Assembly: GCF_029633865.1 (NCBI RefSeq)
Contig: NC_079219.1
Coordinates: 58,518,350-58,582,349 of the forward strand
DNA: 64,000 nt
Direction: 5' to 3'
From: Lampris incognitus
Lineage: Eukaryota; Chordata; Actinopteri; Lampriformes; Lampridae
Shown here: positions 5,660 to 59,467 of the stretch, one piece after another
Numbering within the stretch: position 1 is the stretch's first letter
Layout: every line of letters begins with the position of its first letter
Notes under the pieces: generated by a model
What the model saw: only the letters and a program-made list of their open reading frames with translations
The model's database searches: none
What the model was told of the DNA's origin: nothing
Program-made: the position numbers and the translations under genes

Positions 5660-6475
5660 CCAGCAGCATTATACTGATCATTGTTTCTGCAGACGGTACC
5701 GAGGGTTGTGAAATGGCCCGTTTGCTGAGGCCGGTATAGAAGTGACCCTGTTGTGAAGTAGACTTGGGAGGATTAAGGGCTGAGAGAGTCGGCGTCTCCT
5801 GTGTTCACACGGCCTCGGGGAAGGGATCCGGGGGGTGGGGTGGGGTGGTGGTGGGGGTGGAGGGAGTATGTGCCTGCGTTGCACACACACACACACGTAT
5901 GTTTGACTTGCAAGTTCCAGCATGGCCCTCACAGCAGCACCGCTGCCAGAAGATCCAGTGGTTTCTCGCCGTCTTGCACAACACGGCGATGTTTTCACGC
6001 CGGCCTGTCACAGCAGGCCTCCGTCAGCAGGCCTCCGTCAGCAGCTGCTCCCGTTCAACAGTGTTTACACGCTTCTGCGGACAGTTGGGACCACCGCTTT
6101 AATCCAGTGCCATGAACAGGGCCTGGACCTGTTGTTGTTGTGTTGTTGTTGTTTTTTTACCTTGTGTGTAAACAACTTTCTGTTGGTTCGACGTCTCTGA
6201 CATTATCTACACGAGACCTGAAATGACCGTCCAACTCTCTTTTTAGTTTTGTTTTAATCTTATAAGGTTGGAACGCCGGTACAGACGCCAACCGTGGGTT
6301 CGGATGTAATCAGGTTTTCCAGCCTATCGTCTGTAATCTCTTTCTCTCGCTAGCTCGCTTCCCATTTCTTTGTATTGTGCGCTCGTGTTTGTTCCACCTC
6401 TTTCCTCCCTCGTTCAGCTGTGTCCGCCGTCTGACCACTCACCATTCATGTGCTCTCTTGTGTCTCTCTCTAGCT

Positions 6476-7447
6476 ATGCCACTCCACAAGTCGTCCCGGG
6501 CCCCTCGCCTGGACCCTACCATGATCTCAGCCCCGCTTGGTGACTTCCGCCACACCATGCACATCGGGAGGGGAGGCGATGCCTTTGGCGACACCTCTTT
6601 CCTGTCGACGCATGGGCCGAGCTCACCCAGCTCTGGGCTTGGCGCTCCAGGGGTCATACCCGCTGATGACTCTCCGATCCCGAACGAGCACAATGATCTC
6701 ACAACAGATGATTTGGGAAGCCCACAGAACAATGGACTTACACACTCTGAGTCAGTATCCTCGTTCACCTTGGACCTGGACCTGGATCTGGGTCCATCTA
6801 TCCTGGGGGATGTTTTAGGGGTGATGGATGGACTGGGGCTCGACCCCGAGTGGTCAGGCACCAATGAGGAGGAGGTGTTTAGTCCCAACAGAAGTGCAGC
6901 TGCACAGGAAACGAAGCTGGGGAAGGGAACGACGGAGCAGGTGTCTTTGAGTTTGCAGAATGAGTTGAATGACAAGACGCTGGCTGACATGGATGGAGAC
7001 CAGATGAGAGATAAAGGAGATGGCAGGCTAACAGATGGGAACGGGATCAAGCCAAAGGGGCTGAGGCCAAAAGTGAGATTCAGCGATAAGCGAGAGGAAA
7101 TCATCCGCCAGGCATCTGAGGAGGAAGACGGTCAGGGGTTCGACTTCCAGGATGACGATGAGCTTGAGTGCCGCAGCCCAACGGCAGGCGAGAATGAGCA
7201 AGGTACCCAACCGGTTGGTGGAGGTGACGCAGAGATCCCCAGTCGGAAAGCAGACATGCCGCCTAGTCCCGCCTCTTCACATAGCTCTGAGTACGAAGGA
7301 ATCAACCCATTGGACAGGAGGAGAGCTGACAACTGTCATTCAGAGACTGATTCTGAGGAGGAGGAGGAGGAGGAGGAGGAGGAAGCGGGTAACGGTGGAC
7401 GGGGCTACACGTTTGAAGACGAGTTCGATGATGAGATTGGTCTATAG
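6476..7447 (+). CDS. cdc42ep5: CDC42 effector protein (Borg family), CDC42EP5-like
   Basis: The product (323 aa) is a Borg-family CDC42 effector, which binds GTP-loaded CDC42 through a CRIB motif and regulates septins and actin. The CRIB motif ISAPLGDFRHTMHIG is at residues 17-31 and runs into GRGGDAFGDTSFLS. A second family block, LDLDLDLGPSILGDVLGVM, is at 99-117, and an acidic tail ends FDDEIGL. The short CRIB-to-LGPSIL spacing and the final IGL favour CDC42EP5 over EP1 or EP4. The mammalian protein is about 148 aa; this one is longer in its second half (residues 120-300), with a Glu run near 294-303. The start follows an acceptor at 6473, so upstream in-frame codons are intronic. The whole coding region is one exon, as is usual in this family. 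The family call is firm; the paralogue is inferred, helped by linkage to leng9 and grwd1. Confidence 0.85.
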   Translation: MPLHKSSRAPRLDPTMISAPLGDFRHTMHIGRGGDAFGDTSFLSTHGPSSPSSGLGAPGVIPADDSPIPNEHNDLTTDDLGSPQNNGLTHSESVSSFTLDLDLDLGPSILGDVLGVMDGLGLDPEWSGTNEEEVFSPNRSAAAQETKLGKGTTEQVSLSLQNELNDKTLADMDGDQMRDKGDGRLTDGNGIKPKGLRPKVRFSDKREEIIRQASEEEDGQGFDFQDDDELECRSPTAGENEQGTQPVGGGDAEIPSRKADMPPSPASSHSSEYEGINPLDRRRADNCHSETDSEEEEEEEEEEAGNGGRGYTFEDEFDDEIGL

Positions 7448-9193: not shown

Positions 9194-11651
9194 CTACACC
9201 GATATCGTCCGGAACAAGTTGAATCCTGACAGAGCGGTGGAGATCAACACGCCGGGCATCTGTGGATGCCAGTGGATCTCCTTGACTTCCGTTTGACCCT
9301 GGTGCAGGAAGAGAAGCTGGGGAGGGAGGTCCTTCACCCCCTCTGCCCTCGCACCCACGTCACACGACTCCACCGACAGATCCCACTGACTGACGACGTC
9401 ATCCGCTCCGGAGGCGGCGAACACGCTGGAATCCACAGGGTTCCACTCAACCGAGGTGACCGGAGCGCTGTGCTGCTTGAAGTTGGCCACGGGCCGTCCA
9501 GACTAGAAGGAAAACAAGAGCACAATGGTGTGACTTTCATTCACCGCACACAATGTTAACGGTGCTTCTCTGCCGCATGGGGGCATTTAGTATAAATCCT
9601 AAGAGGAGCAGCTACTAATGGCAGTTAATTTGGGCCACATCTGCCTCCTCTTCACAAGCTGTGGCACCACAGTGCCGGTGTCTCGGAGCGTTTCTCTTGA
9701 TACGGTTTCAAAGCAGATGCATATAAAAAGGGGATCCTGTGTTGGGGATGAATAGCAACTGCCATATTTCCAACGGTGCCTGTGAAGACACCTCATGTGT
9801 AACAAGCAGAAGTATGATGAGCATAGATAAGTCTCATCAGGAGGGCGGCACTGAAGACTTTCACTCAACATTACCCCATGTTTACTTAAAAAAAACCCAA
9901 ACAACTGGGTATCCGGGTAGCGTGGCGGTCTATTCCGTTACCCACCCACACGGGGATCGCCGGTTCGAATCCCCGTGTGGCCTCCGGCTTGGTCGGGCGT
10001 CCCTACAGACACAACTGGCCACGTCTGCAGGTGGGAAGCCAGATGTGGGTGTGTCTCCTGGTCACTGCACTACCGCCTCCTCGGGTCGGTCGGGGCGCCT
10101 GTTCAGGGGGGAGGGGGAACTGGGGGGGAATAGCGTGATCCTCCCACGCGCTACGCCCCCCTGGTGAAACTCCTCACTGTCGGGTGGAAAGAAGCAGCTG
10201 GCGACTCCACATGTATGGGAGGAGACACGTGGTAGTCTGCAGCCCACCCCGGGTCGGTAGAGGGGGCGGAGCAGAGACCGGGACGGCTCGGAAGAGTGGG
10301 GGAATTGGCCTGGTACAATTGGTGAAAAAAAGGGGGGGGGGGGAAGAAAAACATCTAATCTGACAGTGTGGTGTGATGAGAGCTTAAGAGTTTTTCGTGT
10401 AGGACTGACGGTGCAGACAAACCCAACAAGATATGTTTGGTATGCTAGTAACATACCAAACACTCCTTCAGCTTGAACGTGTCGGCCGGCTGAGCAGCTG
10501 TACGCTCCTCTGCCCAACGCTCTTGCATAATCTGAATGGCTACCAATGAACAAGTGGTGATTCTGGCCAAGTCAAGGGAACACATTTACTGGCTTTTACC
10601 TTAAACTGGCGAAGGTCCCATACTTTTAGGAGCCCGTCATCCCCTCCAGACAGGAGGAACGGTTCACTGCTGTTCCAGCTGATGACGTTGACGTCTGACG
10701 AGTGAGCTTCGTTAGCTGAGAGCATCGAGTTGGGCGGGGCGCGGATATCCCATACGCGAATAGACTGATCCACTGAACAGGAGGCAAAAACCTGAGGCAA
10801 GTAATAGTAAAAAGTATGAGGTTTGTACTCTTGGATGACATCTTCAGAAAACAAAACAAAGCTCAACTGGCCTTTACGGCCTTTCAAAACAAGGGACTTC
10901 AACTTGTCACTGGTTGTGGTAGAAATAGCGTTTATCACGGTAGTAACTTCAGTTTGTCCTAAAATTATACTGCGGTTTCACAAACATACTGTAGCTTCTG
11001 TGGGCGACCACTGCAAGTCCTCCACAGACTTGCTGTGCGAGCTGAAAGGCCGCTGGTCGATCTGCCATGACGTCCCGCCTTCCCGTGGCTCCCAGACATG
11101 GATGTTTTTCTTGCAGTCACCACTGACCAGACGGCCTATGAACAGAGTAAACGGACAACAACTCAGCCTCTTCTTCATTAACCATCTAATGGGCGAACTG
11201 ATGAGGAAGACCAGCTCTGTGGTGGGGACGGAACTGGACAGTGTGGAGGCGGTGACAGAGACGAGGGTGAGAGGGTAGCTGAGGACAACCCCGCTCATCC
11301 TCTCTATGCCGAGCTGAGGCAGCTCAGGGGCACGTTCAGCCAGACTCATCCAGCCACGCGCCTCGGAGCACTTAGGGGGGCTCTTTCGTGCCATCAGCCA
11401 TCAGACTCCACAACAGCGCAGCACCCAGGAGCTCCTACCTCCACCGAAAATACTGCACAATATTTCTCACACTGCACAACATTGAACATTACACATGTAT
11501 GTACATACAGACACACAGACCTATTTATTGTACCCATCCATCCATTATCCAAACCGCTTATCCTGCTCTCAGGGTCACGGGAATGTCGGAGCCTATCCCA
11601 GCAGTCACTGGGTGGCAGGCGGGGAGCCACCCTGGGCAGGCCGCCAGGCCA

Positions 11652-11741
<90 letters not shown>

Positions 11742-14700
11742 GGGCAATGTAGTACGGCCGATTCACCTGACCTACATGTCTTCGGACTGTGGGAGGAAAC
11801 CGGAGCACCCGAAGGAAACCCACGCAGACACGGGGAGAACATGCAAACTCCACACAGAGGACGACCCGGGACGACCCCCAAGGTTGGACTACCCCGGGGC
11901 TCGAACCCAGGAGCTACTTGCTGTGAGGCGACCACGCTAACCACTGCGCCACCAGATTAGGTTATCATTATATGAAAGTTGCTTAGAATTAAAAAGGTCG
12001 GATGATCCTCTGTGGCGACCCCTAACGGGAACAGCCGAAAGTAGTAGCAGCAGTAGTAGCTTAGAATTAAAAAGGTGAGACACACTCGTCATGATCCCAC
12101 AAAGTCCATCTCCATTTCATCATTAGTGTTGCTGGGTCCAGGTTTTCACATCAGCATGACAGAGAAAATACTTTTCTATTAGAAGCGAGGTGAATATATG
12201 TGCACCCAATTTTGATGACCCCGGATTTTTTAGAAAAGTTTTTAGTCTCATCCCTGATCTATCGACCACCCACCTAATCACCGGTGGAGATTTTAACACT
12301 ATATTAGACAGTTTCGCCGACAGAAGTTCTACGCGCCCCATTTCCCCGTCTAATTCCACCATAGCCCTTAATCATCTGATGGGGGTCATTGAACCTGGTT
12401 GATATTTGGAGGCAGCAGCACCCGTCTGGTAGAGATTATTCTTTTTTTTCCCCACAGGTGCATAAAATCTTATACAAGAATCGACTACTTTCTAGTAGAC
12501 GCCAAGCTGTCCTCGGACATCATTTCCACCAAGTATCACAACATTTTGATATCAGACCCTCTCTTACTTAATGATGAACAATTCCCGCTACACATTTTCC
12601 ACTCAATCACAGCCTACTTGGCTGAGAACGACACTCCTGATATAAACGACTCCACTTTGTGGGAAGCCCCTAAGGCTGTCGTACGTGGTCATATTATTGC
12701 TTACGAGGCCAAGCTGAAAAAGGACAGAATGAAAGAAATGTCGGAAACTTCTGTTAAGCTTTCAGCACTTGAGAGTGAATATAGATCGTCAGCTTCGCCC
12801 TCCACACTTAATGACGTAATGAAACTAAAATTAAAATGTAACTCTATTCTCTCCGACCAGGTCAGCAAAACGTTACTGAAAATGAAACAAAAACACTTTG
12901 AGATGAGCGACAGGCCGGATAAACTATTAGCGCGCCAACTTAGGGGTGTTCAGGCCAAACGAATGATTAATAAAATTAAAACCAGAACGGGCTCTATATC
13001 CACAGACCCTAAACAGATCAACAAGAGTTCCCGTGAATTCTGTGAGAATCTCTCCACCTGGAGAATCGCTGCTGATACAGCGCCGATTTCAGACCTTCTC
13101 AGCGCTCTACGCCTATCTAAACTGTGTGCCTCGGCGCAAACTGAATTAAATGCAGATATAACTTAAGAGGAAGTGACGGAAGCAATACACTCTTTCCCCA
13201 ACGGGAAGGCTGCCGGACCGGACGGGTATGGCACAGAGTTCTATAAAGCGTACTCGGACAAAGTCTCTCCCATTGTGTTAAGGATGTTTTATCATTCTAT
13301 TGCAACGGCACGTCTCCCTGAATCCCTGTACGTGGCTAGCATATCCCTGTTATTGAAGAAAGATAAGGATGAAACCGACCCAGCATCATACCGTCCTATT
13401 GCCCTCCTCGGCTGTGCCCTAAAGGTGTTCACCAAGATACTGGCAAACAGACTTAATGGAGGTATAGCAACTGTAATCCACCATGGCCAAACTGGATTTA
13501 TCCCAGGAAGATTTTCCTTCTTTAACGTCAGACGATTAATGAATATAATGTACTCTAAATATGATAAAGATGCCAGTATTGCTGTCTTGGAACTCGATGC
13601 CCAGAAAGTCTTTGATCAGGTTGAACGGATATATATTTTGACAGTGTTGAGAGAGTTTGGCCTGGGTGACAATTTCACCTCATGGGTCAAAACGCTATAC
13701 GCCAGCCCAACAGCCTCAGTTATCACCAGCAGTGATAAATCACCCGCCTTTACACTGCACCGCTCCTGCCGTCAAGGCCGCCCTTTAAGCCCGTTACTAT
13801 TCGCACTCGCCATGGAGCCCCTTGCTATTAGTATAAGAAACCATCCCTCTATAGCCCCATTGATGCTAGGCAAGGTGGAGCACCGCATCTCGCTCTACGC
13901 GGATGATGTGGCTCTGCTTCTCTCCCGCCCCGAAGAATCTCTACCACCCTTACTAGAACTAATTACAGAGTTTGGTGAGCCTTCTGGGTACATGATATCT
14001 ACTACTTTCGGCTGCTCCCGTTAGGGGGCGCCACAGCGGATCATCCGTTTCCATCTCTTCCTGTCTTCTGCGTCTTCCTCTGTCACACCAGCCACCTGCA
14101 TGTCTTCCCTCACCACATCCATAAACCTCCTCTTTGGCCTTCCTCTTCTCCTCTTCCCTGGCAGCTCCATATTCAGCATCCTTCTCCCAATATACCCAGC
14201 ATCTCTCCTCCACACATGTCCACACCATCTCCGTCTTGTCTCTCTTGCTTTGTCTCCAAACCGTCCAACCTGAGCGGTCTCTCTAATATAATCATTCCTA
14301 ATCCTGTCCTTCTTCGTTACTCCCAGTGAAAATCTTAGCATCTTCAACTCTGCCACCTCCAGCTCCGCCTCCTGTCTTTTCCTCAGTGTCACTGTCTCCA
14401 AACCATATAACAAGTGGGTACACGATATACTGGGACAAAAGCGAATTCATGCAGCTTAAAGGGAAGCTGAACTCAACATTTGTAAAAAGTGTTCCCTTCC
14501 GTATTACTACAGATGAGATTAAATATTTAGGCGTGGTCATCCCTAGAGATCCCAAACTGATTTATAAACGGAACTTCTTGAGCATGGTAGACAAATCGAA
14601 ATCCAATATTGAAACCTGGAGGCTCTTAACTTTATCCATGATAGGACGAGTCAACGCAGTTAAATGGTGGCTCTCCCCAGGTTTCTATACCTCTTCCAGA

Positions 14701-17700
14701 ATATTTTTGCCCAAGTCTTTCTTGAGGCTACTAAACTCTATTGTCCTTCCCTTTGTCTGGGGATACAAGGCACATCGTATGGCCAAAAAGCACATACTCA
14801 AACCCAAAAGCGCAGGGGGGCCTCAGTCTGCCTAATTTCCAATCCTACTACTGGGCTGCCAACTGCAGAGCGCTGATGTACTGGCAAGGCGTGTACCCCA
14901 ACAGTCTCACCACCTCCACCCCGTCACGGCTTGCAATAGAGCAGGATATCACCAAAAGCTCTCTCCCCGCTCTTCTCTTCGCTAGGAACGTACCTCCAAA
15001 AGCCACTGTGGGTGATAACTTTATGCTCATTAACCCTCTAAAAAGTCTGGTATCAAATTAGGAAAGTGTTTGCTCTACCTGACATCTCTGCCTACACTCC
15101 CGTTTGCAACAACCATGCCTTTTCCCCTTCTCTAACTGATAATGCCTTCACAATTTGGAGAAACAACGCTATCATCACTATCGCAAACCTTTATACAGAT
15201 AATGCATTCGCCACCTTCGCACAGTTGAGGGAAAAGTATGCACTCCCTGCATCCCACTTCTCCCGTTATCTCCAGATTAGAGACTACGTCCGTACCAACC
15301 TGCCTAACTTTGAGGTGTTCCCTGCTGCTGTCAGCTTCTATACCCTTATGAATCAGCCCCCTCGTTCAAGGAGACCTGTTACCAGATTTGTTGATGTTTT
15401 TACAACACACGATTCCGTCTCCACGCAGCACTTAGAAGCAGCTTGGGAGGAGGATCTTGGTATGGCAATCGAAGATGAGAGCTGGGAAACAAGCCTTAAA
15501 GCTATCCACGACTGTTCTATAAACTCCCGACACCAACTTATCCAATTTAAAGTGGTTGATAGGCTGCACTACTCCTGTACCAAGCTACACGCATTTTATC
15601 CCTCTGTGTCCCCAATCTGCCCCAAGTGTAAAGCAGCGGAGGGCACACTGGGCCATCTTTTCTGGTCTTGCCCTAAACTAAATAAGTTCTGGTCAGATAG
15701 TTTTAAATGCTTTTCTGACGTATATAGTTGTGACCTCACACCAGACTCACACACCGCCATCCTGGGGGAAACCAAGCATCATCTAACGCTGTCTCATTTG
15801 GAACAGAAGACAATACAATATGGCATGGTTGTTGCGAAAAGGACTATACTCACAAAGTGGAAGGGTGACGAGGTGCCTGTGTTTAGAACCTGGTTAGCTG
15901 AAATCACCAATCTGCTAAATATGGAGAAGATCCGATACACTGTCTCTCTTACGTCTGCAACCTTTAACACAATGTGGCAACCATTCCTTTCTTATCTGTC
16001 AAAGTCGTCTTGAATTGAAATTTTTTTTGGGGGGTGGTTAATTTATATACACTACCGTTCAAAAGTTTGGGATCACCCAAACAATTTTGTGTTTTCCATG
16101 AAAAGTCACACTTATTCACCACCATATGTTGTGAAATGAATAGAAAATAGAGTCAAGACATTGACAAGGTTAGAAATAATGATTTGTATTTGAAATAAGA
16201 TTTTTTTTACATCAAACTTTGCTTTCGTTAAAGAATCCTCCATTTGCAGCAATTACAGCATTGCAGACCTTTGGCATTCTAGCTGTTAATTTGTTGAGGT
16301 AATCTGGAGAAATTGCACCCCACGCTTCCAGAAGCAGCTCCCACAAGTTGGATTGGTTGGATGGGCACTTCTTTGAGCAGATTGAGTTTCTGGAGCATCA
16401 CATTTGTGGGGTCAATTAAACGCTCAAAATGGCCAGAAAAAGAGAACTTTCATCTGAAACTCGACAGTCTATTCTTGTTCTTAGAAATGAAGGCTATTCC
16501 ATGCGAGAAATTGCTAAGAAATTGAAGATTTCCTACACCGGTGTGTACTACTCCCTTCAGAGGACAGCACAAACAGGCTCTAACCAGAGTAGAAAAAGAA
16601 GTGGGAGGCCGCGTTTGAGAAACAGACGCCTCACAGGTCCCCAACTGGCATCTTCATTAAATAGTACCTGTTAGAGCCTGTTTGTGCTGTCCTCTGAAGG
16701 GAGTAGTACACACCGGTGTAGGAAATCTTCAATTTCTTAGCAATTTCTCGCATGGAATAGCCTTCATTTCTAAGAACAAGAATAGACTGTCGAGTTTCAG
16801 ATGAAAGTTCTCTTTTTCTGGCCATTTTGAGCGTTTAATTGACCCCACAAATGTGATGCTCCAGAAACTCAATCTGCTCAAAGAGGTGCCCATCCAACCA
16901 ATCCAACTTGTGGGAGCTGCTTCTGGAAGCGTGGGGTGCAATTTCTCCAGATTACCTCAACAAATTAACAGCTAGAATGCCAAAGGTCTGCAATGCTGTA
17001 ATTGCTGCAAATGGAGGATTCTTTGACGAAAGCAAAGTTTGATGTAAAAAAAATCTTATTTCAAATACAAATCATTATTTCTAACCTTGTCAATGTCTTG
17101 ACTCTATTTTCTATTCATTTCACAACATATGGTGGTGAATAAGTGTGACTTTTCATGGAAAACACAAAATTGTTTGGGTGATCCCAAACTTTTGAACGGT
17201 AGTGTAGCTGCGTGTACTACATTGTATTAAGTCTTTATACTGTACATTTTTCCTTTTTTTAAACATTTTTTTTACCTTCAGTCTGAGACATCTATTCGCA
17301 TCTATCCCATTTAAAAGATGGTGCTGAACGTCATTTCTTTTTGTATCTTAAGAGCAGTTCTGCTGTTATGGTTGCTTTTGTTATATTGTCCTTGTGTCTG
17401 TTTGATTTGCTTAGGGGGGAGGGGGGAGGATTTACTGTTTTTGTGATCTGTCTTTATCCCTGTTAATTGAAAATGTTATAAATAAAATATTTAAAAAATT
17501 AAAAAATAAAAAAAGAAGTGAGGTGAATTCTGACGACTCTACCTCAGGAGCTTTAGAATTGTGGCGTGAACCAATCTGAAGAAAAAATAAACCAGCGAGG
17601 CGTCTGAAACTACTGCAGATCTCTGTGTATTTGAAAGATTAACACACCGGGTACTTTCGGAGACCAGTCAATCGCAAAGCCTTCGGTCATGTGGCCCGAG

Positions 17701-20700
17701 AAACTGAAGAGGGGAGAGGCTTCCTTCTGCTGCTGGATTAACGCTGCCATGGCATCAGAATTGTGGACTGCCTCCAGCTGAGGCTGCAAGTCAAATATTT
17801 CAACCTGCCCCTTTTCTGACCAGACAGCAGCCAACGACTGCTGCCCGCGTCGAGTCACCTGCAAGCACAGACACACAAAAAGCCCAAATAAGTTACAGTC
17901 TTCTGAAACTATAGCTTTCATGAAGTAGTATGTGCCGTGGAGATCCCTGTGTACGCAGGTCTTCTTTCCCACCACTCAGTCCATGAGCCGATCTTACCGA
18001 TGAACACAATCACCACCAGAGAGGAGGACTAACCAGTGAAGTCAGCTGGTGCAGTGCTGGGTTGGAACGAAAACCTGCATACACACGGACCGCCATGGCA
18101 CACAACTGAACACCTCTGGTTTAAGATATATGACACACTGAGGGCTCCATGAGAGAAGATGTAAAAACCCATCCATCCATCCATCTATCCGTGGGGCTCG
18201 AACCAAGGACCTTCTTGCTGTGAGGCGACCGCGCTAACCACTGCGCCGCCCCAAGATGGAAAATCGTTGCATAGAAATGCTAGGCGACGCACCCTGACTC
18301 TGTTAATTCCTCCATAGTGAGGCATCATTGCCAGCTCCATCTGTGGCTTTTTATCTTCGTCTTCATCGCTCTCTTCATCGCTGCTTTCTTTCTCGTCTTC
18401 CTTCACTTCCCCTGTTCCATGAAGGTTATGCATGCGCATGACAAGGAGTCTAAAGTAAAACAAAACAAAATATTAAAGGACAGAGGGTACCAGAAACCTG
18501 ATGACCTGTCTCCACATTTTCAGACTGCAGTGTTAACTAATGGCATTACATTCAAAAGGTCCGAAAAAGGAAGCAGCATTTTGATCTTTTTTTGGGGGAG
18601 GGGGATCCCCCCCTTTTCTGCACAATTGTATCCGGCCAATTACCCCCACTCTTCCGAGCCATCCTGGTCTCTGCTCCACCCCCTCTGCTGATCCGGGGAG
18701 GCTGCAGACTACCACATGCCCCCTCCCATACATGTGGGGTCGCCAGCCGCTTCTTTTCACCTGACAGTGAGGAGTTTCGCCAGGGGGACGTAGTGTGTGG
18801 GAGGATCACGCTATACCCCCCAGTTCCCCCGAACAGGTGCCCCGAACGACCAGAGGAGGCGCTAGTGAAGCGACCAGGACACATATCCACATCCACTTCC
18901 CACCCACAGACACGGCCAATTGTGTCTGTAGAGACGCCCGACCGAGCCGGGGGTAACACGGGGATTCGATCCGGCGATCCCCGTGTTGGTATGCAACGGA
19001 ATAGACCCCCTACGTTGCCCGGACGCCCAGCAGTTGGATAATTTTTAACGGGACTCAAGAAGAGTCACTGCAGTGCAGCTTATTAATAATTAGTGAGACA
19101 GTTGTACAATCACAGTCTACGAATTTCACCCAAGTTCCTTGTACATGTTGATAACTGAGGCCCATCCAAGCATCAACGCCGTAAAACCAGACCGGTCAAA
19201 ACAGGAAGCACTGAGAAAACCTCTCAACTAGTCCCCGAAAATGGTTTTTTTTTTTTTTTTTTTTGGTTCTTACAATTCTGTTAATCCCAAACGTAGCCTA
19301 TTGTACTTGTCACACTGACTGGCGTACACACGGTGCAAGTAGTTTGAATTATAAACACTTCATTGGGCTACAGTTAGCTCTGTTGTGATCCATCGAGCGT
19401 TGGGGAGTCAGGTCGCCAACTCAATGACCATCTTTTTTTTGGGGGGGGTAGCACATTTTATGCCATCGGCAAGTCACATGGAATTACACATCACTAGTCT
19501 AAGAATAAATGCTGAGCATCATTGTGTGTGTGTGTTGGAGAGCAAGTGAGAGAGGTGGCCACTCGTACTTGTGCAGTCAACTATATCACATAATTAATGA
19601 GCAACCATCTGATTTACTGCCCTAACCAGCAAAACAAACCACTACTGTATTCATCAACAGCAATAACACACTTGTACAGGGATGGGCAACATCATCCAGA
19701 TCCAGAAAGGGCCGGTGTGGGTGCAGGTCTTTGTTCCAACCGAGCAGTTACACACCCGAGTCTACAAATCAAGGCCCTTAGCAAACACTAGTGGTTGACC
19801 AATAGAAGCAGGTGTAATGGCTTGGTTGGAACAAAGACCTGCACCCACACCGGCCCTTTCTGGATCATGTTGCCCACCCCTCATGTCACTGTTGCGGAAA
19901 TGTTCCCCACTGCATGCACAGTGCGTGGCGAGGGAGCAGCACGAATTCGGTATTCTCCCCAGCATTAAACATTCACTCTTAGATTGTCAAACTATTTCCT
20001 GGACTGAACTGGTTTGTTGAACTGGTCAAATCTGGAAATCCCCCGGCCAATCCTTGAGAGTTGGAAACTCTAATGAGGAGGGCTGGGAAGGTTAATTTCA
20101 AGGCATCGTCAGTGACAGGTTATAGATTACTACCTGCTTCTGACTGTGAAGAGTGCCTTAATTATTCTCAGTAACATGATGTTATTCATCCATCCCTCCA
20201 TTATCCAAGCCGCTTATCCAAATTCGGGTCATGGGATGCGGGAGCCTATCCCAGCAGTCGTTGGGCGGCAGGCGGGGAGACACCCTGGACAGGCCGCCAG
20301 TCCATCACAGGGCCGACACATTCACACCTAGGGACAATTCAGTACGGGCAATCCACCTGACCTCCATGTCTTTGGACTGTAGGAGGAAACCCATGCAGAC
20401 ACAGGGAGAACATGCAAACTCCACACAGAGGATGACCCGGGATGACCCCCAAGGTTAGACTACCCCAGGGTTCGAACCCAGGACCTTCTTTGCTGTGAGG
20501 CAACCGTGCTAACCACTGCATCACCGTGCCACATTTTATATATATACTATATATATACTGGAATAGGCTCCAGCATCCCTGTGACCCCGAGAGCAGGATA
20601 AGTGGTTAAGACAACGGACGGATATACGAGATATGATGGTGAAATTAGGCCAGCGAAACATATCAAAAATCATTACGAATGGATAGTAAAAACTTTATTA

Positions 20701-21416
20701 AGTCTGTAATGGCGGTGCCTTAACTCTGCAACGTAGTCCGAGAAATGTCTCTGTCAACTCCCTATGGAGAACTCGGTTCAGGTCATTTTGGATTAACCCG
20801 TCTCTAAACAGACTGCCTTGTGTCTGGCTCCATATTACCTGCAAATTACCACTAGACCACTACACCTACCTGTTGCTGAGTGCAGTGTCGGCTTGCGTGC
20901 CTGCACAGAGCAGCAGTGACAAGGGAAACTGCTCCCTGTTTCCCCCATCTTCATCTCTCACTATGTCGAAGCTCAAGCAAGGAGCACCTATGGGGACCAT
21001 AAGAAAAAAACATGACATAGGTACTCTCATTACCACCTCTCATTATCATCATATTTGTGATATTGGGCTGTACAAGTAACATTGACCTGACTTGATTACT
21101 ATCCAGTGGCAAATGTGGATATCAGCAGCCATCAGCAGACTGGACCCTGCATAAACAGTGCAGCCAGCGCGCCAGCTGGGCCCAAACTTAGTCCGGGCTT
21201 ACCCGTCTGGCACTCGTGGTACATGCGGTAAGCCGACTGGTCCATCTCCAGCTCGACCCCCGGCTGCAGCGGCTCTAAGCCGGGGACGTACACTTTGCTC
21301 TCGACCTCTCCGTCGACCCCCTCATCCTCCATGTCGTTGTCGTCGCTGCCGGCTTCGTCCATCTCCTCCGTCTCCCCGTCCCCGGCGGTACACGCGTCTT
21401 CGCCGGGCGCCGCCAT
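9194..21416 (-). CDS. grwd1: Glutamate-rich WD repeat-containing protein 1
   Basis: Seven exons on the minus strand: 21416-21203, 20987-20870, 18449-18293, 17858-17648, 11135-10990, 10791-10600 and 9502-9194. All junctions are GT/AG, all phases join, and the product is 448 aa (human about 446). GRWD1 is a nuclear/nucleolar histone-binding WD protein linked to ribosome biogenesis and CDT1/MCM loading. The N-terminal histone-binding segment carries the core [17 protein letters not shown]. An acidic run ([19 protein letters not shown]) lies near residues 126-144 in exon 3, followed by [12 protein letters not shown]. Exons 4-7 hold the beta-propeller, including [44 protein letters not shown] and the C-terminal HWHPQ...TISV. 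The chosen start (21416) has a good context (CAACATGG) and fits the family length. Intron 4 is 6.5 kb because of a LINE insertion. Confidence 0.96.
9905..10350 (+). mobile_element. SINE family A copy in grwd1 intron 6
   Basis: GGGTAGCGTGGCGGTCTATTCC head and B box GGTTCGAATCC near 9962-9972, followed by the standard family A body and a G-rich end at 10330-10345. Confidence 0.85.
11520..11960 (-). mobile_element. SINE family B copy in grwd1 intron 4
   Basis: The minus-strand family B copy includes an internal (GT)n tract that has expanded to about 85 bp (11654-11738 as CA on the plus strand). The tRNA-like head lies near 11900-11955. Confidence 0.85.
11997..12060 (-). mobile_element. RTE-like LINE 3'-end relic
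   Basis: GGATGATCCTCTGTGGCGACCCC ... AGCCGAAAGTAGTAG corresponds to the reverse complement of the left end of the fragment at 13999-14415. Only the 3' untranslated tip is present, ending in an (AGT)n-like tail. Confidence 0.55.
13173..13985 (+). pseudogene. LINE reverse transcriptase domain (L1/Tx1-like), degraded
   Basis: Recognisable RT blocks in order are [61 protein letters not shown] (normally Asp-Ala-x-Lys-Ala-Phe-Asp), [18 protein letters not shown] and [10 protein letters not shown], which holds the catalytic YADD. A stop at 13164-13166 separates it from the upstream ORF, and the downstream part is split by the RTE-like insertion. The enzyme would copy its own RNA at a nicked target; this copy cannot make a full product. 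Confidence 0.85.
13999..14415 (-). mobile_element. RTE-like LINE fragment inserted in the L1/Tx1 LINE
   Basis: It is flanked by a 13-bp duplication, GGGTACAYGATAT, at 13986-13998 and 14416-14428. The minus strand carries a 130-codon open frame (14413-14021). Its product resembles the C-terminal tail of a reverse transcriptase, with a [19 protein letters not shown]-type motif and a basic RRGRPKRR stretch. Removing it restores the host LINE reading GEPSGY-to-WDKSEF. Confidence 0.8.
16050..17204. mobile_element. Palindromic (fold-back) Tc1-like element
   Basis: Two 535-bp arms (16050-16584 and 16670-17204) are almost perfect reverse complements around an 85-bp loop, with TA on both sides (16048-16049, 17205-17206). 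Both ends are CACTACCGTTCAAAAGTTTG, a Tc1-type terminus. Each arm encodes the same N-terminal transposase helix-turn-helix segment, [20 protein letters not shown] at its start, on opposite strands. The loop keeps a second short transposase stretch (KRSGRPR ... [13 protein letters not shown]). It has no catalytic domain, so it can only have moved with help. Confidence 0.9.
18176..18262 (-). mobile_element. SINE family B head fragment
   Basis: Only the tRNA-like head and a CATC tail remain, joined directly, as if the body was deleted. It lies in grwd1 intron 3. Confidence 0.65.
18590..19030 (-). mobile_element. SINE family A copy in grwd1 intron 2
   Basis: Reverse-oriented family A copy with a B box near 18960-18975 and a G/A-rich 3' end at the low-coordinate side. 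It has several point differences from the other copies. Confidence 0.85.
19031..19676. other. grwd1 intron 2 spacer
   Basis: Apart from T-runs (19243-19264, 19432-19441) I see nothing recognisable here. Confidence 0.5.
19677..19881. mobile_element. MITE with long inverted ends (hAT-like appearance)
   Basis: About 65 bp at the left (CAGGGATGGGCAACAT ... TTTGTTCCAACC) is repeated in inverse at the right (GGTTGGAACAAAG ... GTTGCCCACCCCT), around a short unrelated core. No coding capacity. The superfamily is inferred only from the CAGGGRTGGGCAAC-type tip. Confidence 0.7.
20187..20535 (-). mobile_element. SINE family B copy in grwd1 intron 2
   Basis: Minus-strand copy with the tRNA-like head near 20465-20530 and the GGATAAGCGGCTT end near 20200. 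A partial copy in the opposite orientation follows at 20557-20612. Confidence 0.8.
20557..20612 (+). mobile_element. SINE family B 3' fragment
   Basis: GGAATAGGCTCCAGCATCCC to GGATAAGTGG matches the 3' part of family B, here on the plus strand next to a (TATA)n stretch. Confidence 0.6.
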
Positions 21417-21560
21417 GTTGAGAACGTCGGGTTCGCTTACTTCCGGTATGCCGGACACGTGGTTTGAACGCCATCCTCCCGACGCCCCTCCCGCCTCGGT
21501 CTCGCGTCCCCCCCCCCCTCCGCACACCCCTCTCTCCCCCATTTCCAGGAACTCAGCTGA
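21417..21560 (-). promoter_or_regulatory. grwd1: grwd1 promoter region
   Basis: Immediately upstream of the start codon (minus strand) the DNA is GC-rich. It includes an ETS-type ACTTCCGG site (about 21437-21445), common in TATA-less housekeeping promoters. The transcription start is not resolved. Confidence 0.45.
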
Positions 21561-23299: not shown

Positions 23300-24830
23300 G
23301 TCATTACTACATTTGAGAATTTGGTGCATCCATGCAGTGGGTGCTGTGGTGCCTGGAACAGCCACCTCTCTCTTATCTCTTAAATCTGGGATGAGAAAAC
23401 CTTTGTCTATGCATAGAGGAATTCTCCAAGTTAATCTTTTTTTAGTGTACAAAGGAAGAAGGGAAAAAAAACACACAGTGCATGCACTGTGGGAAAGACA
23501 AGCTGGTTCCAATTTGAGAGAAGGGTGAGGAGAAGAGCACTCACCCTGGGGTCAGTAAACCCTGTCTGTATAAAAAAAGACGACTGTTTGTGGTTAGCCT
23601 CACAGCTGGGCATGCATGCCTGGTGGCTAATCCACATATTCTATAAACTGGTGCTGGATAAAATCGGCTAAAAATGGCTGTGGAGGAAAAAAAAAAAGGA
23701 AAATTACTGGAGAAGACATGTGGGTGCTTCAACGTGAAGCGCTTCGGGTGTCTGGAAAAGTGCTATATAAATGTTATTATTATTATGTGCACACATACAC
23801 ATATTTAATGTGCTGCGATCATGGTTGCCGTGCCTACTGTGCAGAGGCATTTAACACAGCATCTTCTTAGTGGTGCGGTGCAGTTTTCTTCATCATCTTT
23901 GATGAGATTGTGTCCTGCGTGGAGAATTTAACGGTGGTGTAACCGCTGATGTTGTGTCGGACATCAACCGCTGCACGTTTAATTGGAACGTTTCGCATTC
24001 GCACTGAAGTTCTGGTCGTGGACCACGACTGATCCGTATTGCTTCCTGTTACTGTGCCTGACTTGCCGAAATCAATCAAACGCAAAGATTTCTCTGCAGT
24101 AAGCAGAAAACACAACAGGCCTCGGGAAAGAGCTCAGAAATACACGCTTGACGCACTTGGTGGACTGAAAACCCACGTATCCTAAGGAGGATAATGGTGT
24201 TTATTGAATGTGTGGGTGTATACATGCACGGGCATGTGTGTGAACACAGAGTTGCGGTTGTTTTCCTGTGGAACACCAGAGCAGGGTGTGTAGGTCTGCA
24301 GCCCGGTCCCATCCGAAGTGCATCCCTCCTTCATCTGCTCGGTGACTTTCACACAGCCGACACATACCAGACTTACGCCGTCGTAATGTGCAGTTTGTGA
24401 ACGGTCTTGTAGTGAATTGTGCACAAATTGCAGTGCACTGTGCAACCGGATCCCTGGCAATCCTTGTCTCAACAATAAGCCTTGTTGCTCCAGTCCACCG
24501 CTGGTTTAAAGAAACTGATATTTTTAATCTCTTATAAAACTGGAAAAAAAAACAACAACGTTCATCTCTGAAAAGAGATTTTACTGAACAAAACCCCCGA
24601 AAGCTAATCCCTAAAACAAGAACCGGATCCGAACAGGCCGTTCCAGTAGACCAACAGCCGATACCCACACACCAGCCCCTGCGGCGACCCTCGGGGGGGG
24701 ACGCTTTCCTCCAGGTAGTCCTCAAAACAATGAAACCAACTTCACGGCAAATATCCACGTTTGTATGCAAATGAATTTAATTTATGAATTTACGATAAGT
24801 ACAAAAGTAAAACTTTCATAAACAAAAATA
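23300..24830. other. Unassigned region between grwd1 and the cytokine gene
   Basis: No recognised gene. Minus-strand 24100-23867 has a good acceptor-like CTGCTTACTGCAG followed by an open frame of about 78 codons ending AAPHH-like, but I recognise no family and its phase does not suit the upstream cytokine exon. A longer minus-strand open frame (24770-24201) also lacks support. Confidence 0.4.
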
Positions 24831-25240: not shown

Positions 25241-27282
25241 CTATGGCAACAACCACCGGCACAGTCCGAGAAGCAGGGGGCTCCAGATAGAAACAGGAAA
25301 CGTTAAGGATAGGCAGCTGCAATTGGAGGGCGGCTGTGTCATGTCAAACACCTCCTCCCGGCGTCCTTCGATGGCGCGGGTGGTTAACAGTCTGGCTCGA
25401 GACGGGCCGTAGTCTTCCCTTACGAGCGAGCCGGGGGCCGGGGTGGGCAGGGCGGGCAGGGGGCACGTCTCAACGGAGGCCAAGCATCCCACCTCTAGCC
25501 ACCGGGAAAAAAGGTCCGACGTGAGCTGGAGGAGCTCCTCCGGCGAGGACGAGACGGCGGGGAGGCCGGAGAGGTCCGTCTCCTCCTGGAATCTCTGTGC
25601 GGGGCGGAAGGAAACACGGAGGAGTTAAAGTAAACAACGAAGCCACTTCGTCACCGCTTAAGCGTTCCTGCAAGAGCGAAAGTGGACCGAGCTCCGGGAG
25701 GTTAACGCGGGGCCTTTCAGGGACCCGGAGCCCGTCACAGATGGACCGGCGAGCACAAACACGGCGCCCTTCGTTAGCGTAGCGAAAAGAGAGGCGGCAA
25801 AGGATCCCGCCGTGACATGAATACAGTATAGAGGGTCGCGTAACAGGACCGGGTGGTGTACAGGCGAGGACGAGGTGGGCAGGTCCCCCCGATAAACATC
25901 TCCTCTACTTAGCCACCATACGCACCTCTGTGTGTATGTTCTTCCGTAAGATTCTGTCCAGTGTCTGTCTCAGCTCGAGGACGAAGGAGTGGTTGAGATG
26001 CTCGTCCCAGAGGTTCCTGATGAGCATGTGCCAGGAATCCAGCAGGACGACGGCCGCGGGGAACACACAGCACTGCGGGGGGGGGACGGAGGGGAGGGAC
26101 AGACATTTGTACGCGAAGAGACAAAAACCTCAACAATGACAGACAAACTGTAGGGGAAACGGTCTGGAATCGGTACAAAAAACAAGTGAATCTTGTGAGT
26201 GGGGGGGCACTGGGAAGGTGAGGTTAACGCCGGCTCCTCGGCGAGGGATAAACATTGACAGGAAGTTGAGAGTGGGGACCAACTATCAGCCAAAAGATGT
26301 GCGAGCCATGTGTCCTGCAGGTGTGTGGGTCCCTGCCTGTCGTTTGTGAGCGACTTCGTCGATGCACAACTCACCGGATCGGTGTCGCAGAGCATGGTGC
26401 TTTTGTAGTGGTGCTCAACATAGTAGTCTTTGGGGAACACCGTCCGCTAGGGGAGAAGAGAGGTTGCAGAGACAAAGGCGTTAAGACAAGCCGACCGATG
26501 AGGCAGGGTCGTAATACCGTGCCACGATCTCGAACAGCACAACCGGCGGACCACGAGGAAGCGGATTAAAGTGCGGCCCGAGGGGCGGCCCCTCCAAATG
26601 CCCCGCCCAACCCGCGTTATCAGCCGGGTTAATGGTTAACGGGCCGGCCGCCCAGCCGCCCGGGCGCCACTTGCGTCGGGCAACAAGGCGCGCCGGCCCT
26701 CCGGTTCGCTCGGCCCACCGGTCAAGCTCAAGCAGGGCTTTACGATGAGACGTCCGCCGTCTCACGCCAACTTTTGCAAAACAGTACCCCCCCCCACCCC
26801 CCAAAAAACAAACAAAAGTCAATTTAGTCAATGCAGGACACTATGAACTTTGACCTCGCCAGACAACATGACAGCGGGCCCGCGGAGAGAGCTGCCTCCG
26901 GTTTATAAACCCTGAGCGTTGCTACCCCCCGGCGGGGGGCATCAAGCGGGCTACTGGGGTGTTCTGGAGGTTGAATATCTGCACACGGGGCGCCACGACA
27001 GGGACACGGACACCCGAGCCGAGACGGGGAAACTTACAAAGCCGGTCGGGTTGGACTCGATGGTGGCCTGTATGTTTCCGACGCTTCTCAAATCAAAATC
27101 ACATCCGCCACATTGGACAGTCAACAACGGTAGCAACAGCAACACTGTTTTTAGAGAGAGAGGGTGGGGGGGGGGGAGAGGGAGAGAGACGGGGGAGGAG
27201 GTGGAGGGGGGGGAGAGAGAGAGAGAGAGAGAGAGAGATACATACAGGTTAATGAGTGGAAACTTTCTGCGGTTTGCAGCAT
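25241..27282 (-). CDS. Four-helix cytokine precursor, candidate FLT3 ligand
   Basis: Exons on the minus strand: 27282-27246, 27144-27038, 26446-26375, 26072-25926 and 25594-25241. Phases join throughout and reading to the stop gives 238 aa (human FLT3LG 235). A signal peptide spans exons 1-2 (hydrophobic LTLLLLLPLLTV, residues 11-22). Predicted helices are near 31-47, 76-94, 99-117 and 139-156. Cysteines lie at 24, 27, 68, 73, 74, 158 and 165, with an N-glycosylation site at N99. FPKDYYV then LC at 52-68 echoes the KITLG/FLT3LG/CSF1 pattern, and FSRWLEVGC at 150-158 resembles the end of the FLT3LG helical domain. The linkage (grwd1, leng9, cdc42ep5) matches human 19q13, where FLT3LG lies. A donor CTC|GTAAGG at 25424-25423 could instead lead to a transmembrane exon I did not find; reading on gives a hydrophobic end, LTFPVSIWSPLLLGLCRWLL. 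The exon structure is fairly sure; the name is inference. Confidence 0.72.
27150..27240. repeat. Purine-rich (GA)n tract
   Basis: GAGAGAGA with GGGGG interruptions. On the minus strand it is CT-rich and forms the polypyrimidine tract in front of the cytokine exon 2 acceptor. Confidence 0.8.
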
Positions 27283-38300: not shown

Positions 38301-40547
38301 CACTCTGGCCACATGAGGACGAGCATCGTCATGCATGAGCAGGAACCCAGGGCCCACTGCACCAGCATATGGTCTGACAATGGGTCTGAGGATCTCATCC
38401 CGCTACCTAATGGCAGTCATGGTACCTCTGGCTAGCACGTAGAGGTCTGTGCGGCCCTCCAAGGATATGCCTCCCCAGACCATCACTGACCCACCGCCAA
38501 ACCGGTCATGCTGGAGGATGTTGCAGGCAGCAGAACGTTCTCCACAGCGTCTCCAGACTCTCTCACGTCTGTCACATGTGTTCAGTGTGAACCTGCTCTC
38601 ATCTGTGAAGAGCACAGGGCGCCAATGGCCAATCTGCCAACCAAGATGTTCTCTGGCAAAGGTCAATCGGGCTGCACGGTGTTGGGCTGTGAGCACAGGC
38701 CCCAATTGTGGACGTCGGGCCCTCATACCATCCTCATGCATTCTGTTTCTCACTGTTTGAGCAGAAACCTGCACATTAGTGGCCTGTTGAAGGTCGTTTT
38801 GTAGGGCTCCGGCAGTGCTCCTCCTGTTCCTCCTTGCACAAAGGACCAGATAGCGGTCCTGCTGCGGGGTTGTTGTCCTCCTGCGGCCCCCTCCACGTCT
38901 CCTGGTGTACTGGCCTGTCTCCTGGTACCTCCTCCATGCTCTGGACACTGTGCTGGGAGACACATCAAATCTTCTTGCCACAGCACGCACTGATGTGCCA
39001 TCCTGGATGGATGAGCTGCACTACCTGAGCAACTTCTGTAGGTTGCAGATACCGCCTCATGCCACCTCTAGTGGTGAGGGCACTAGCACAATGAAAAACC
39101 AACCAAAGATCGGCCAGAAAAGATGAGGACAGGCAAATGGTCTGTGGCCACCACCTGCAAATCCATTCCTTTTATAGGGGTTGTCTTGCAAATTGTCTAA
39201 TTTCCACCTGGTGGAAATTAGACAATTTACCAAAAGGTGAAATTGATTCACAAATCAGTGTTGCTTCCTAACTGGACAGGTTGATATCTCAAAAGTGTGA
39301 TTGACTTGGAGCTACATTGCATTGCTTATGTGTTCCCTTTATTTTTTTGAGCAGTGTATATGATGGTAAAGGTCTTCTTCAAGCCTACCTGGTGCATTTT
39401 TCCACTTTTGGCTGCTATGCTGAAGAGCTAAAATGCGACGCACTACATCATTTACCCCCGCAAAAGTCCAACTCAAGAACGGCCATTAAAACCGGCAACA
39501 GCAAAAGCGATCATTAATTAAGTTTTGTGGAGAAGCTATTGTCTTAAATACACCGGTGACAGAGTACTGAAAAGGTCATTGGGTTACGTGTAATTCTTCA
39601 GGACTGTAGCCTCTTGGGGAAACGTGACCAAAAGCATGTCAGTGTCTTGTGTGTGTCTCCAACCTTGAGTGCTGTGGACTGCAGGCTCTGTATCGTCAGT
39701 CTAAGGTGACGCAGCAGAAAGGGCCACGAGTTGATGAGGTAGATCCTGTCCATGGCCACCATGACAATGCTGTACCAGCGTTGGAAGCCCCTCGCCAAGC
39801 TGTCCTTGATAAAAAAGGTGTGCGAGAACACAAACCCGTGTTGCTCGTCCCCAAAGAAGATAGGGCCTTCTCGGCCAGGGCACACCTGAAGTGAAAGAGC
39901 AAGGGACAGAGAAATGGGGGGAGCATAGGGAAGACAAAAGGGAGAGGGATGATGGGTAAGTTCATGTAGTGCACGACCAGTTGTGCTGGTCTGGAGGCTG
40001 TGCGACACACACACACAGACGCACGTGGTGGTTTACCTCACAGCTGAGGCTGCGTACGCAGGCCTGGCGCACAACACTGAAGAGCTGGGGCTGTCGAGGA
40101 TGCTGGTGGCTCAGGAAGCGGATGCCCGTCTCGTCATCAACGCTGACAAAGCCCGGGTGAGACGCAGGCAGAGACCGACATCCCTGCGGTCCAAGAAAGG
40201 GACACAGTGCAGGCCAAGGGGACACGTTAGAAGAGATGACCGGATGAAAAAGACAATGAGGGACGGCGGTGCATGATGGGACACGAGGTTAAAGTGAAGC
40301 ATAGAAGGCTTGGCTGTCAACAGTCGTCACCCTTTACCTCACACATGTCTCCTCTTTGCGACGCTGAGCTGTTGGCCCTCATGGTGAGTCCCTCCCCCTC
40401 CCTGTCTCCATCCCGGTCCCGGTCTCCGGGCACCGGGGCGCCCGCCTGGGGTGGAGAAGGGGATGGAGGATGAAGCGCCTCCGTGCAGAACAAGGTTCGT
40501 GGGCCATGGAGTTCGCAGAAGTGACACAGAGCGACCAGGGCGTTCAT
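30885..40547 (-). CDS. flcn: Folliculin
   Basis: Eleven coding exons on the minus strand: 40547-40338, 40183-40037, 39885-39664, 37566-37400, 37291-37200, 35532-35369, 32734-32621, 32064-31941, 31785-31657, 31470-31368 and 31092-30885. All phases join, giving 559 aa (human 579). Folliculin, with FNIP1/2, is the GTPase-activating protein for RagC/D at the lysosome, controlling mTORC1 and TFEB/TFE3; loss causes Birt-Hogg-Dube syndrome. The N-terminal longin domain opens [20 protein letters not shown]. Its catalytic arginine (human Arg164, in [11 protein letters not shown]) is conserved as Arg151. The C-terminal DENN domain ends [16 protein letters not shown] ... [18 protein letters not shown]. 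The loop between residues 25 and 65 differs from mammals and lacks the HSP phosphosite context. The exon 3 donor (AAG|GTTGGA) is weak but its phase and position match. The ATG is the first base triplet of its exon, so the 5' UTR lies in an upstream exon. Confidence 0.97.
32110..32440. repeat. flcn: (TA)n with ~50-bp tandem spacer in flcn intron 7
   Basis: Four copies of a spacer of about 50 bp (TATAAACTGTACTTTGAGGC ... GCAAATTGTTCAA) are separated by (TA)n tracts of 15 to 45 bp. The design is the same as the CA array at 3825-4655: constant spacer, variable dinucleotide. Confidence 0.95.
32786..33372. repeat. flcn: 15-bp minisatellite in flcn intron 6
   Basis: About 39 copies of a 15-bp unit, CATAGAGACACATAG with ATC/ACATC and ATAC variants. 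Because 15 is a multiple of three, all frames stay open and read as [12 protein letters not shown]-like repeats on the minus strand; these are not genes. Confidence 0.95.
33505..33960 (-). mobile_element. SINE family A copy in flcn intron 6
   Basis: Reverse-oriented copy with B box near 33892-33902 and a poly-A tail (AAAAAA run 33477-33494 on the plus strand next to its 3' end). Confidence 0.8.
33961..34486. other. flcn intron 6 spacer
   Basis: I see no repeat family or gene in this stretch. Confidence 0.5.
34495..35027. mobile_element. MITE with 23-bp inverted repeats and 8-bp target duplication
   Basis: The left end GGTAACACTTTAGTATGGGG and the right end pair over 23 bp with one mismatch. 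CTAATTTT flanks both sides (34487-34494 and 35028-35035). The 8-bp duplication points to the hAT superfamily. A stretch of about 68 bp next to the right end is duplicated in tandem (about 34860-34995). No coding capacity. Confidence 0.85.
35560..35935 (-). mobile_element. SINE family B copy in flcn intron 5
   Basis: Full-length minus-strand copy with (CATC)n at its 3' end (35562-35579) and the tRNA-like head near 35875-35930. It begins 28 bp from flcn exon 6. Confidence 0.85.
35936..37135. other. flcn intron 5 spacer
   Basis: No recognisable element. The minus-strand open frame at 36789-36415 has no family resemblance. Confidence 0.5.
37773..39356 (-). mobile_element. Tc1-like DNA transposon, nearly complete
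   Basis: A 1,584-bp element flanked by TA (37771-37772, 39357-39358). Its ends are inverted repeats, CACTGCTCAAAAAAATAAAG and its reverse complement. It lies in flcn intron 3, with its transposase gene on the same strand as flcn. A palindrome of about 32 bp (GTCTAATTTCCACCTGGTGG ...) lies near 39196-39230. Confidence 0.92.
38031..39060 (-). pseudogene. Tc1-like transposase with one frameshift and one nonsense codon
   Basis: The reading frame would give about 342 aa. The N-terminal helix-turn-helix region includes [20 protein letters not shown] and a GRRR basic patch. The DDE catalytic triad is visible: FTDESRF, then MHDDARPH, then [13 protein letters not shown] frameshift near 39005-39012 separates the initiating [12 protein letters not shown] segment from the rest. 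An in-frame TAG at about 38403-38405 lies between the first and second catalytic Asp blocks. With only two lesions the copy is young, but it cannot encode an active enzyme. Confidence 0.9.
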
Positions 40548-59200: not shown

Positions 59201-59431
59201 CCCTTCGCCGAGTTCAACTGGGACGCCGGTCCCTGCGACTGCGACTACTCTGCCGAGCTGGCCCTGCCCCGGCACAGGATCCAGTACTTCACCTACAGAG
59301 GGCACCGCGTGTGGGACCGCAACAGCAGGACCGACAGGGTGTTCGGCTCCACCGGTCAATCTCTGGCTCCCCCCTTTGGTGGGGAGGAGGAAGAAGGCAA
59401 AGACCGTCGACGTCTCTTTTCCTACCCCTGT

Positions 59432-59467
<36 letters not shown>

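Follow-up and report, generated by a model that had tools for sequence, protein, structure and literature searches.

In mammals, the FLT3 ligand (FLT3LG), a growth factor for blood cells, drives the development of dendritic cells and progenitors. Its three disulphides join C4 to C85, C44 to C127, and C93 to C132. The place of this ligand in fish is less settled. FLT3L is described as not identified in any fish (PMC6424866), and flt3l is listed as potentially missing in zebrafish, with divergence named as an explanation (PMC6306437, section 9). The latter source also cites Latimeria and elephant shark as having flt3l; flt3 goes unmentioned in the main text of the elephant-shark EST paper cited for it (PMC3466250). 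Among the papers listed by searches of the open-licence PMC literature, none reports a teleost FLT3 ligand gene, and an automatic database annotation is possible.

The locus described here lies at 27282–25241 on the minus strand of the window, the 64,000-nucleotide stretch of Lampris incognitus DNA that was analysed (contig C12, positions 58,518,350–58,582,349, in a genome of 1.48 Gb and 537 contigs). Judged from its sequence, its product is probably a ligand of the KITLG/FLT3LG/CSF1 family. With a specific locus to examine, the question of a fish FLT3 ligand becomes testable. If the candidate is FLT3LG, fish would have an intact FLT3 axis, serving dendritic and stem cells, with a fast-changing ligand; if it is another member of the family, a ligand beyond the two known kitlg genes would be added. 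The candidate could also serve fish immunologists as a growth factor in dendritic cell culture.

Gene Model and Predicted Protein

Five minus-strand exons join into a single stop-free frame of 717 coding bases including the stop codon, which encodes 238 residues. The parts of the gene are as follows:

Exon 1, 27246..27282, minus strand: ATG and start of the predicted signal peptide (MLQTAESFHSLT); ends in phase 1 at an ordinary donor
Exon 2, 27038..27144, minus strand: remaining signal peptide, N-terminal cysteines C24 and C27, and the predicted helix-A stretch; ends in phase 0
Exon 3, 26375..26446, minus strand: RTVFPKDYYVEHHYKSTMLCDTDP; begins four residues before PKDY, like both kitlg genes of this genome
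Exon 4, 25926..26072, minus strand: predicted helices B and C in 49 codons; flanked on either side by a phase-0 intron
Exon 5, 25241..25594, minus strand: predicted helix D (SPEELLQLTSDLFSRWLEVGC), stalk, C-terminal hydrophobic stretch, and stop codon
AATAAA, candidate poly(A) signal, 24200..24205, minus strand: about 1 kb below the stop, marking a putative 3′ end

All four introns run from GT to AG, with lengths of 101, 591, 302, and 331 bases and phases of 1, 0, 0, and 0. By a simple donor score, 9%, 4%, 0.1%, and 0.6% of the minus-strand GTs of the window score as well as donors 1–4, respectively; donors 1 and 2 are ordinary, and donors 3 and 4 are strong. GC content is 0.54, 0.45, and 0.75 at the first, second, and third codon positions. 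Codon use was scored against neighbouring ORFs (811 codons in frames chosen by the analyst, with stops penalised), and the gene frame reaches +4.5, compared with −128.7 and −88.7 for the other forward frames and −47.0, −8.3, and −78.7 for the antisense frames. Exon by exon, the gene frame is the best of the three forward frames in all five exons, with scores below zero in exons 2 and 5. The context of the ATG, by reading, is poor. The five phase-matched minus-strand exons proposed in the initial annotation are confirmed as sequence by the GT–AG introns, the one open frame, and a codon signal that is best in frame, and the junction numbers given there are the edge bases of these exons. The locus is very likely gene-like. 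A search of the 1.48 Gb genome with the mature protein returned four matches, all of them to the gene's own exons 2–5, and no second copy.

The predicted order of parts is a signal peptide, CGGC, the A stretch, the PKDYYVEHHY segment, the B, C, and D stretches, a stalk, and a hydrophobic end. The signal peptide claimed earlier is borne out by a hydrophobic stretch in the spliced frame. Four amphipathic helices had also been claimed; three have clear window peaks, at residues 81–94 (0.50, helix B), 102–115 (0.70, helix C), and 141–154 (0.53, helix D), whereas helix A is scarcely distinct, with a moment of 0.36 at residues 30–43 that is barely above its surroundings. Cysteines C73 and C74 stand side by side, and exon 4 opens with two cysteines.

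Fold predictions cover exons 4 and 5 singly. AlphaFold2 gives exon 4 by itself one helix at residues 5–48 with a mean pLDDT of 80, as one might expect of helices B and C cut from a bundle. For exon 5 by itself, the mean confidence is low (54.7), and a helix at 18–41 corresponds to helix D (residues 21–30 average 77), with the stalk at about 45–50 and a short helix at 105–115 in the hydrophobic end. In a scan for separate downstream transmembrane exons, the end of exon 5 has a mean hydrophobicity of 1.67 and is in the helix-D frame; other hydrophobic stretches reach up to 1.95. The C-terminal hydrophobic end may be a membrane span or a GPI signal, both being possible, and the C-terminus has nearly no cytoplasmic part.

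Comparison with KITLG, FLT3LG, and CSF1

Two kitlg genes lie elsewhere in the genome, at C9:32.607–32.611 Mb and C3:15.209–15.211 Mb. In both, with splice sites placed by reading, four residues of exon 3 precede P(K/I)DY. Helices B and C are encoded by the following exon, of 51 and 53 codons, whose start lies two or three residues ahead of the helix-B cysteine. The exon for helix D comes after it, and the introns between these exons are in phase 0. The candidate has this layout in the start of exon 3, the 49-codon exon 4 for helices B and C, and exon 5 in phase 0. It thus has the gene structure of a class III receptor tyrosine kinase ligand, with a short strand exon, a single B and C exon, and phase-0 introns. 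Because its three internal phase-0 introns match both kitlg genes, the candidate is most likely a KITLG/FLT3LG/CSF1-type ligand, and this shared layout is the strongest evidence for such a reading.

Besides intron positions and phases around exons 3–5, the candidate shares with KITLG the PKDY motif and a PEE before helix D. As in the fish kitlg pair, there is no cysteine within the B and C exon past the helix-B cysteine. The fish pair has a cysteine near the start of the exon that follows (ECHY, QCHY), which the candidate lacks, and after helix D the candidate differs again in keeping the stalk and tail in the helix-D exon. It also differs in being missed by the Pfam SCF model, in its weak similarity to the fish kitlg pair, and in its chromosome and neighbours. 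As an observation on the kitlg genes themselves (C9:32.610 Mb and C3:15.210 Mb), helix C of either gene ends without a cysteine, the following exon has one near its start, and no cysteine is visible at the mature N-terminus of the C9 gene.

With FLT3LG, the candidate shares a signal peptide, a DY-containing segment, a helix D with FSRxLExxC at its end, and a stalk followed by a hydrophobic tail. It differs in that a single exon encodes helix D, stalk, and tail, in having hardly any cytoplasmic part, in its adjacent cysteines C73 and C74, and in lacking a profile match. Paired cysteines had been said to recall FLT3LG, KITLG, and CSF1. By reading, equivalents of FLT3LG cysteines C4, C44, and C132 can be placed, while those of C85, C93, and C127 are missing (three of six), and the candidate lacks the three-disulphide pattern of FLT3LG. 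The resemblance to CSF1 includes the same receptor class and weak similarity (87 of 10,000 shuffles); the candidate has no CSF1 profile match and lacks the giant stalk exon of the CSF1 gene.

Database searches return little. No Pfam model matches the whole protein at E ≤ 10, the mature part gives a chance match to DUF5924 (0.21), and no IL34 model is named in the Pfam scan of the candidate. The PDB search with the spliced protein gave no match, NCBIfam gave nothing useful, a scan of viral contigs found no relative, and Rfam has no family at the gathering threshold within the window. The Flt3_lig profile (PF02947) does not match the candidate and scores 238.3 bits on human FLT3LG as a control; over the whole genome it gives five matches from six scored candidates, the candidate locus not among them. 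These matches, one of which is on C13 at 19.9 Mb, were rejected as FLT3LG, four of the five having been translated and none being cytokine-like. The SCF profile (PF02404) likewise has no match to the candidate, with 54.7 bits for the joined C9 kitlg as a control. The CSF-1 profile (PF05337) has no match either, and it found no csf1 in the genome, so it is insensitive here; one weak genome match to it was rejected as csf1 on the grounds that its correct-strand translation is not csf1-like.

Pairwise alignments were compared with 1000 shuffled candidates per setting. The shuffles that reach the real score, as local/global at gap 11 and then at gap 8, number 6/1 and 1/0 for human FLT3LG, 6/0 and 4/3 for human KITLG, 126/2 and 28/3 for a second KITLG, 16/297 and 35/292 for the C9 kitlg, and 17/5 and 23/8 for human CSF1. 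As a yardstick, none of seven cross-family pairs of accepted members falls below 48 of 500 shuffles, so accepted members find each other no better. Exon against exon, with assumed human exon limits and 2000 shuffles, FLT3LG is the best of three references (0, compared with 1 for human KITLG and 14 for the C9 kitlg).

Among HMMs tried with 10,000 shuffles, four KITLG sequences give 7, the mammalian KITLG pair 15, the fish kitlg pair 453, CSF1 87, one FLT3LG sequence 119, and two FLT3LG sequences 673; with 20,000 shuffles, three FLT3LG sequences give 1278 and three KITLG sequences 7. Human FLT3LG itself gives 451 of 10,000 against the four-sequence KITLG HMM. The best hhalign match to FLT3LG is FSRWLEVGC, over 14 columns (E 0.0042, probability 8%), and the match to KITLG covers 68 columns from PKDY to helix C (E 0.012, probability 4%); FLT3LG against KITLG gives E 0.27.

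A home-made spliced alignment of 152 kb on both strands is weak evidence. At loose settings, the FLT3LG query ranks the locus second, with 75.5, and the reversed query attains 80.6. Strict settings, picked after the loose result, put the locus first for human FLT3LG in four of four among the best three per segment and strand, through exons 4 and 5 in three and through exon 4 alone, tied, in one; reversed FLT3LG scores 53, 53, 53, and 61, above FLT3LG at 48, 44, 42, and 51. For KITLG, the locus is 18th in one strict setting and absent from these best matches in three, and for CSF1 it is absent; it also appears low among those for reversed KITLG and reversed CSF1. Taken together, several of the many tests tried support membership of the family near the 1-in-1000 level, and in these comparisons the pairwise tests lean to FLT3LG and the profile tests to KITLG.

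Neighbourhood of the Locus

The genes identified around the candidate in the window are:

CDC42EP-type gene, 6380..7444, plus strand: Pfam BORG_CEP and PBD
grwd1 (assumed), 10540..21542, minus strand: same strand as the candidate, downstream; WD40-type matches in two of four ORFs, none in the other two
flcn, one ORF, 39601..40014, minus strand: Pfam Folliculin, E 5.2e-27
LENG9-type gene, 59036..59455, plus strand: Pfam MJ1316, E 8e-26

The name grwd1 for the ORFs at 10540..21542 is our assumption, given by reading. Together with the two kitlg genes elsewhere, the folliculin, MJ1316-domain, and CDC42EP-type ORFs are consistent with a fish, in agreement with the initial annotation. At the locus, grwd1, leng8-type, leng9-type, and cdc42ep-type genes lie within about 55 kb. 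We take the human places of these genes to be 19q13.3–13.4, the region of FLT3LG; flcn is presumably at human 17p11 and thus a stranger to the 19q13 set. The neighbours of the candidate differ from those of KITLG, presumably at human 12q21, and of CSF1, presumably at 1p13.

Further neighbours of FLT3LG are, on our assumption, rpl13a, which adjoins it in mammals, and nosip and snrnp70, which are also close in human. A search with rpl13a itself places that gene at 24.3 Mb of C21, and C13 carries nosip and snrnp70, so none of the three tested is on the chromosome of the candidate. The 19q13 linkage put forward in the initial annotation is thus held by the nearest neighbours, the grwd1, leng8/leng9-type, and cdc42ep-type genes with their presumed human places, and fails for these three. 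Scattering of the block after the teleost genome duplication could explain the dispersed neighbours. In the 10 kb upstream (lower coordinate) of rpl13a, no FLT3LG-like gene was found by spliced scan or reading.

Matches to Ribosomal_L13 on C12 at 17.9 Mb (17.89 Mb) were rejected as rpl13a; they are read as mitochondrial mrpl13, and FLT3LG thereby lost one supporting argument. Synteny comparisons can be misled here, since this Pfam model detects mrpl13 at C12:17.89 Mb and overlooks cytosolic rpl13a, which is on C21. In the PDB, a chain labelled L13a starts with FLT3LG.

The window also contains repetitive sequence, described here by reading. Open frames like a broken LINE reverse transcriptase occupy 12399–16013 on the plus strand, between ORFs assigned to grwd1, and an ORF like a Tc1/mariner transposase fragment is at 38403–38990 on the minus strand, with similar readings at three other loci. 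Long minisatellite-like tandem repeats, open in several frames, are at 42410–44258, 50755–51297, 53941–54336, 58313–59115, and 59289–60695.

Identity of the Candidate Ligand and Its Putative Receptor

Several accounts of the locus have to be weighed. A locus with no working gene, made of chance open frames or a decayed gene, would fit the poor start context, the ordinary donors 1 and 2, and the codon scores below zero in exons 2 and 5, but is very improbable given five stop-free exons, a frame that is the best of six, and high third-position GC. The product might instead be some other secreted or membrane-bound helical protein whose family resemblance is convergent. No database match is significant, and single similarity tests, of which many were tried, span chance to about 1 in 1000; yet three phase-0 introns match in place relative to PKDY and the helix B and C exon, and this, with the order of helices, stalk, and tail, makes convergence improbable.

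A class III receptor tyrosine kinase ligand that is not the FLT3LG orthologue, either an old KITLG-like paralogue or a diverged csf1 binding Kit, Csf1r, or Flt3, is a serious possibility, though a doubtful one. It gains from the KITLG profiles (7 of 10,000 with four sequences, 15 of 10,000 with the mammalian pair, and 7 of 20,000 with three), the 68-column hhalign match to KITLG (E 0.012, probability 4%), the CSF1 result (87 of 10,000), and the PKDY segment with a kitlg-like start of exon 3. None of the three further FLT3LG neighbours shares the chromosome, and the Pfam model did not locate csf1 in the genome. Against this, two kitlg genes are already present on C9 and C3, the similarity to this fish pair is weaker (453 of 10,000), Pfam SCF detects the C9 kitlg and misses the candidate, and the neighbours are unlike those presumed for KITLG (12q21) or CSF1 (1p13).

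The best single reading, on which our judgement is evenly balanced, is that the candidate is a strongly diverged fish FLT3LG orthologue. The name is given because of elimination, the FSRWLEVGC end, the flt3 receptor exons in the genome, and the neighbours that we presume to be those of 19q13. Since the two kitlg genes are on other chromosomes, the candidate is a further gene; csf1 and il34 are unlocated in the genome, so the elimination is incomplete. Of the original FLT3LG assignment, the kind of family stands, through gene structure, helix placement, and weak repeated similarity, while the name itself is the best remaining choice.

As a strongly diverged FLT3LG orthologue, the locus would encode a secreted or membrane-held short-chain four-helix cytokine, with helices A–D, a strand segment separating A from B, and a flexible stalk leading to the C-terminal hydrophobic segment, which would be either a membrane span or a GPI signal. 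If it works like human FLT3LG, the protein would form a dimer that joins two Flt3 receptors and turns on their kinase, and it would support haematopoietic progenitors and dendritic cells. We infer the transcription, whole fold, dimerisation, receptor, and function of the candidate. A fuller account, in which our confidence stops somewhat short of even, is that teleosts may have kept the FLT3 ligand, unrecognised upstream of grwd1, with changed disulphides and with its stalk and tail merged into the exon for helix D, and that in this species it would meet a receptor region of three tandem stretches at 96–99% identity, the catalytic-loop exon being broken in two of them.

The flt3-type receptor exons are on C25, close to what reads as a flt1-type gene. 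The juxtamembrane segment of the receptor is FLT3-like, with 67% identity over 30 residues to a human fragment entered by hand. The receptor region, at C25:6.815–6.889 Mb, consists of three tandem stretches, which either were triplicated recently or result from the assembly. Over 9 kb, copies 2 and 3 share 98.9% identity; copy 1 matches them at 96–99% in three pieces. The exon that encodes the catalytic loop (HRDLAARN) is interrupted by a frame break in copies 2 and 3 and reads through in copy 1.
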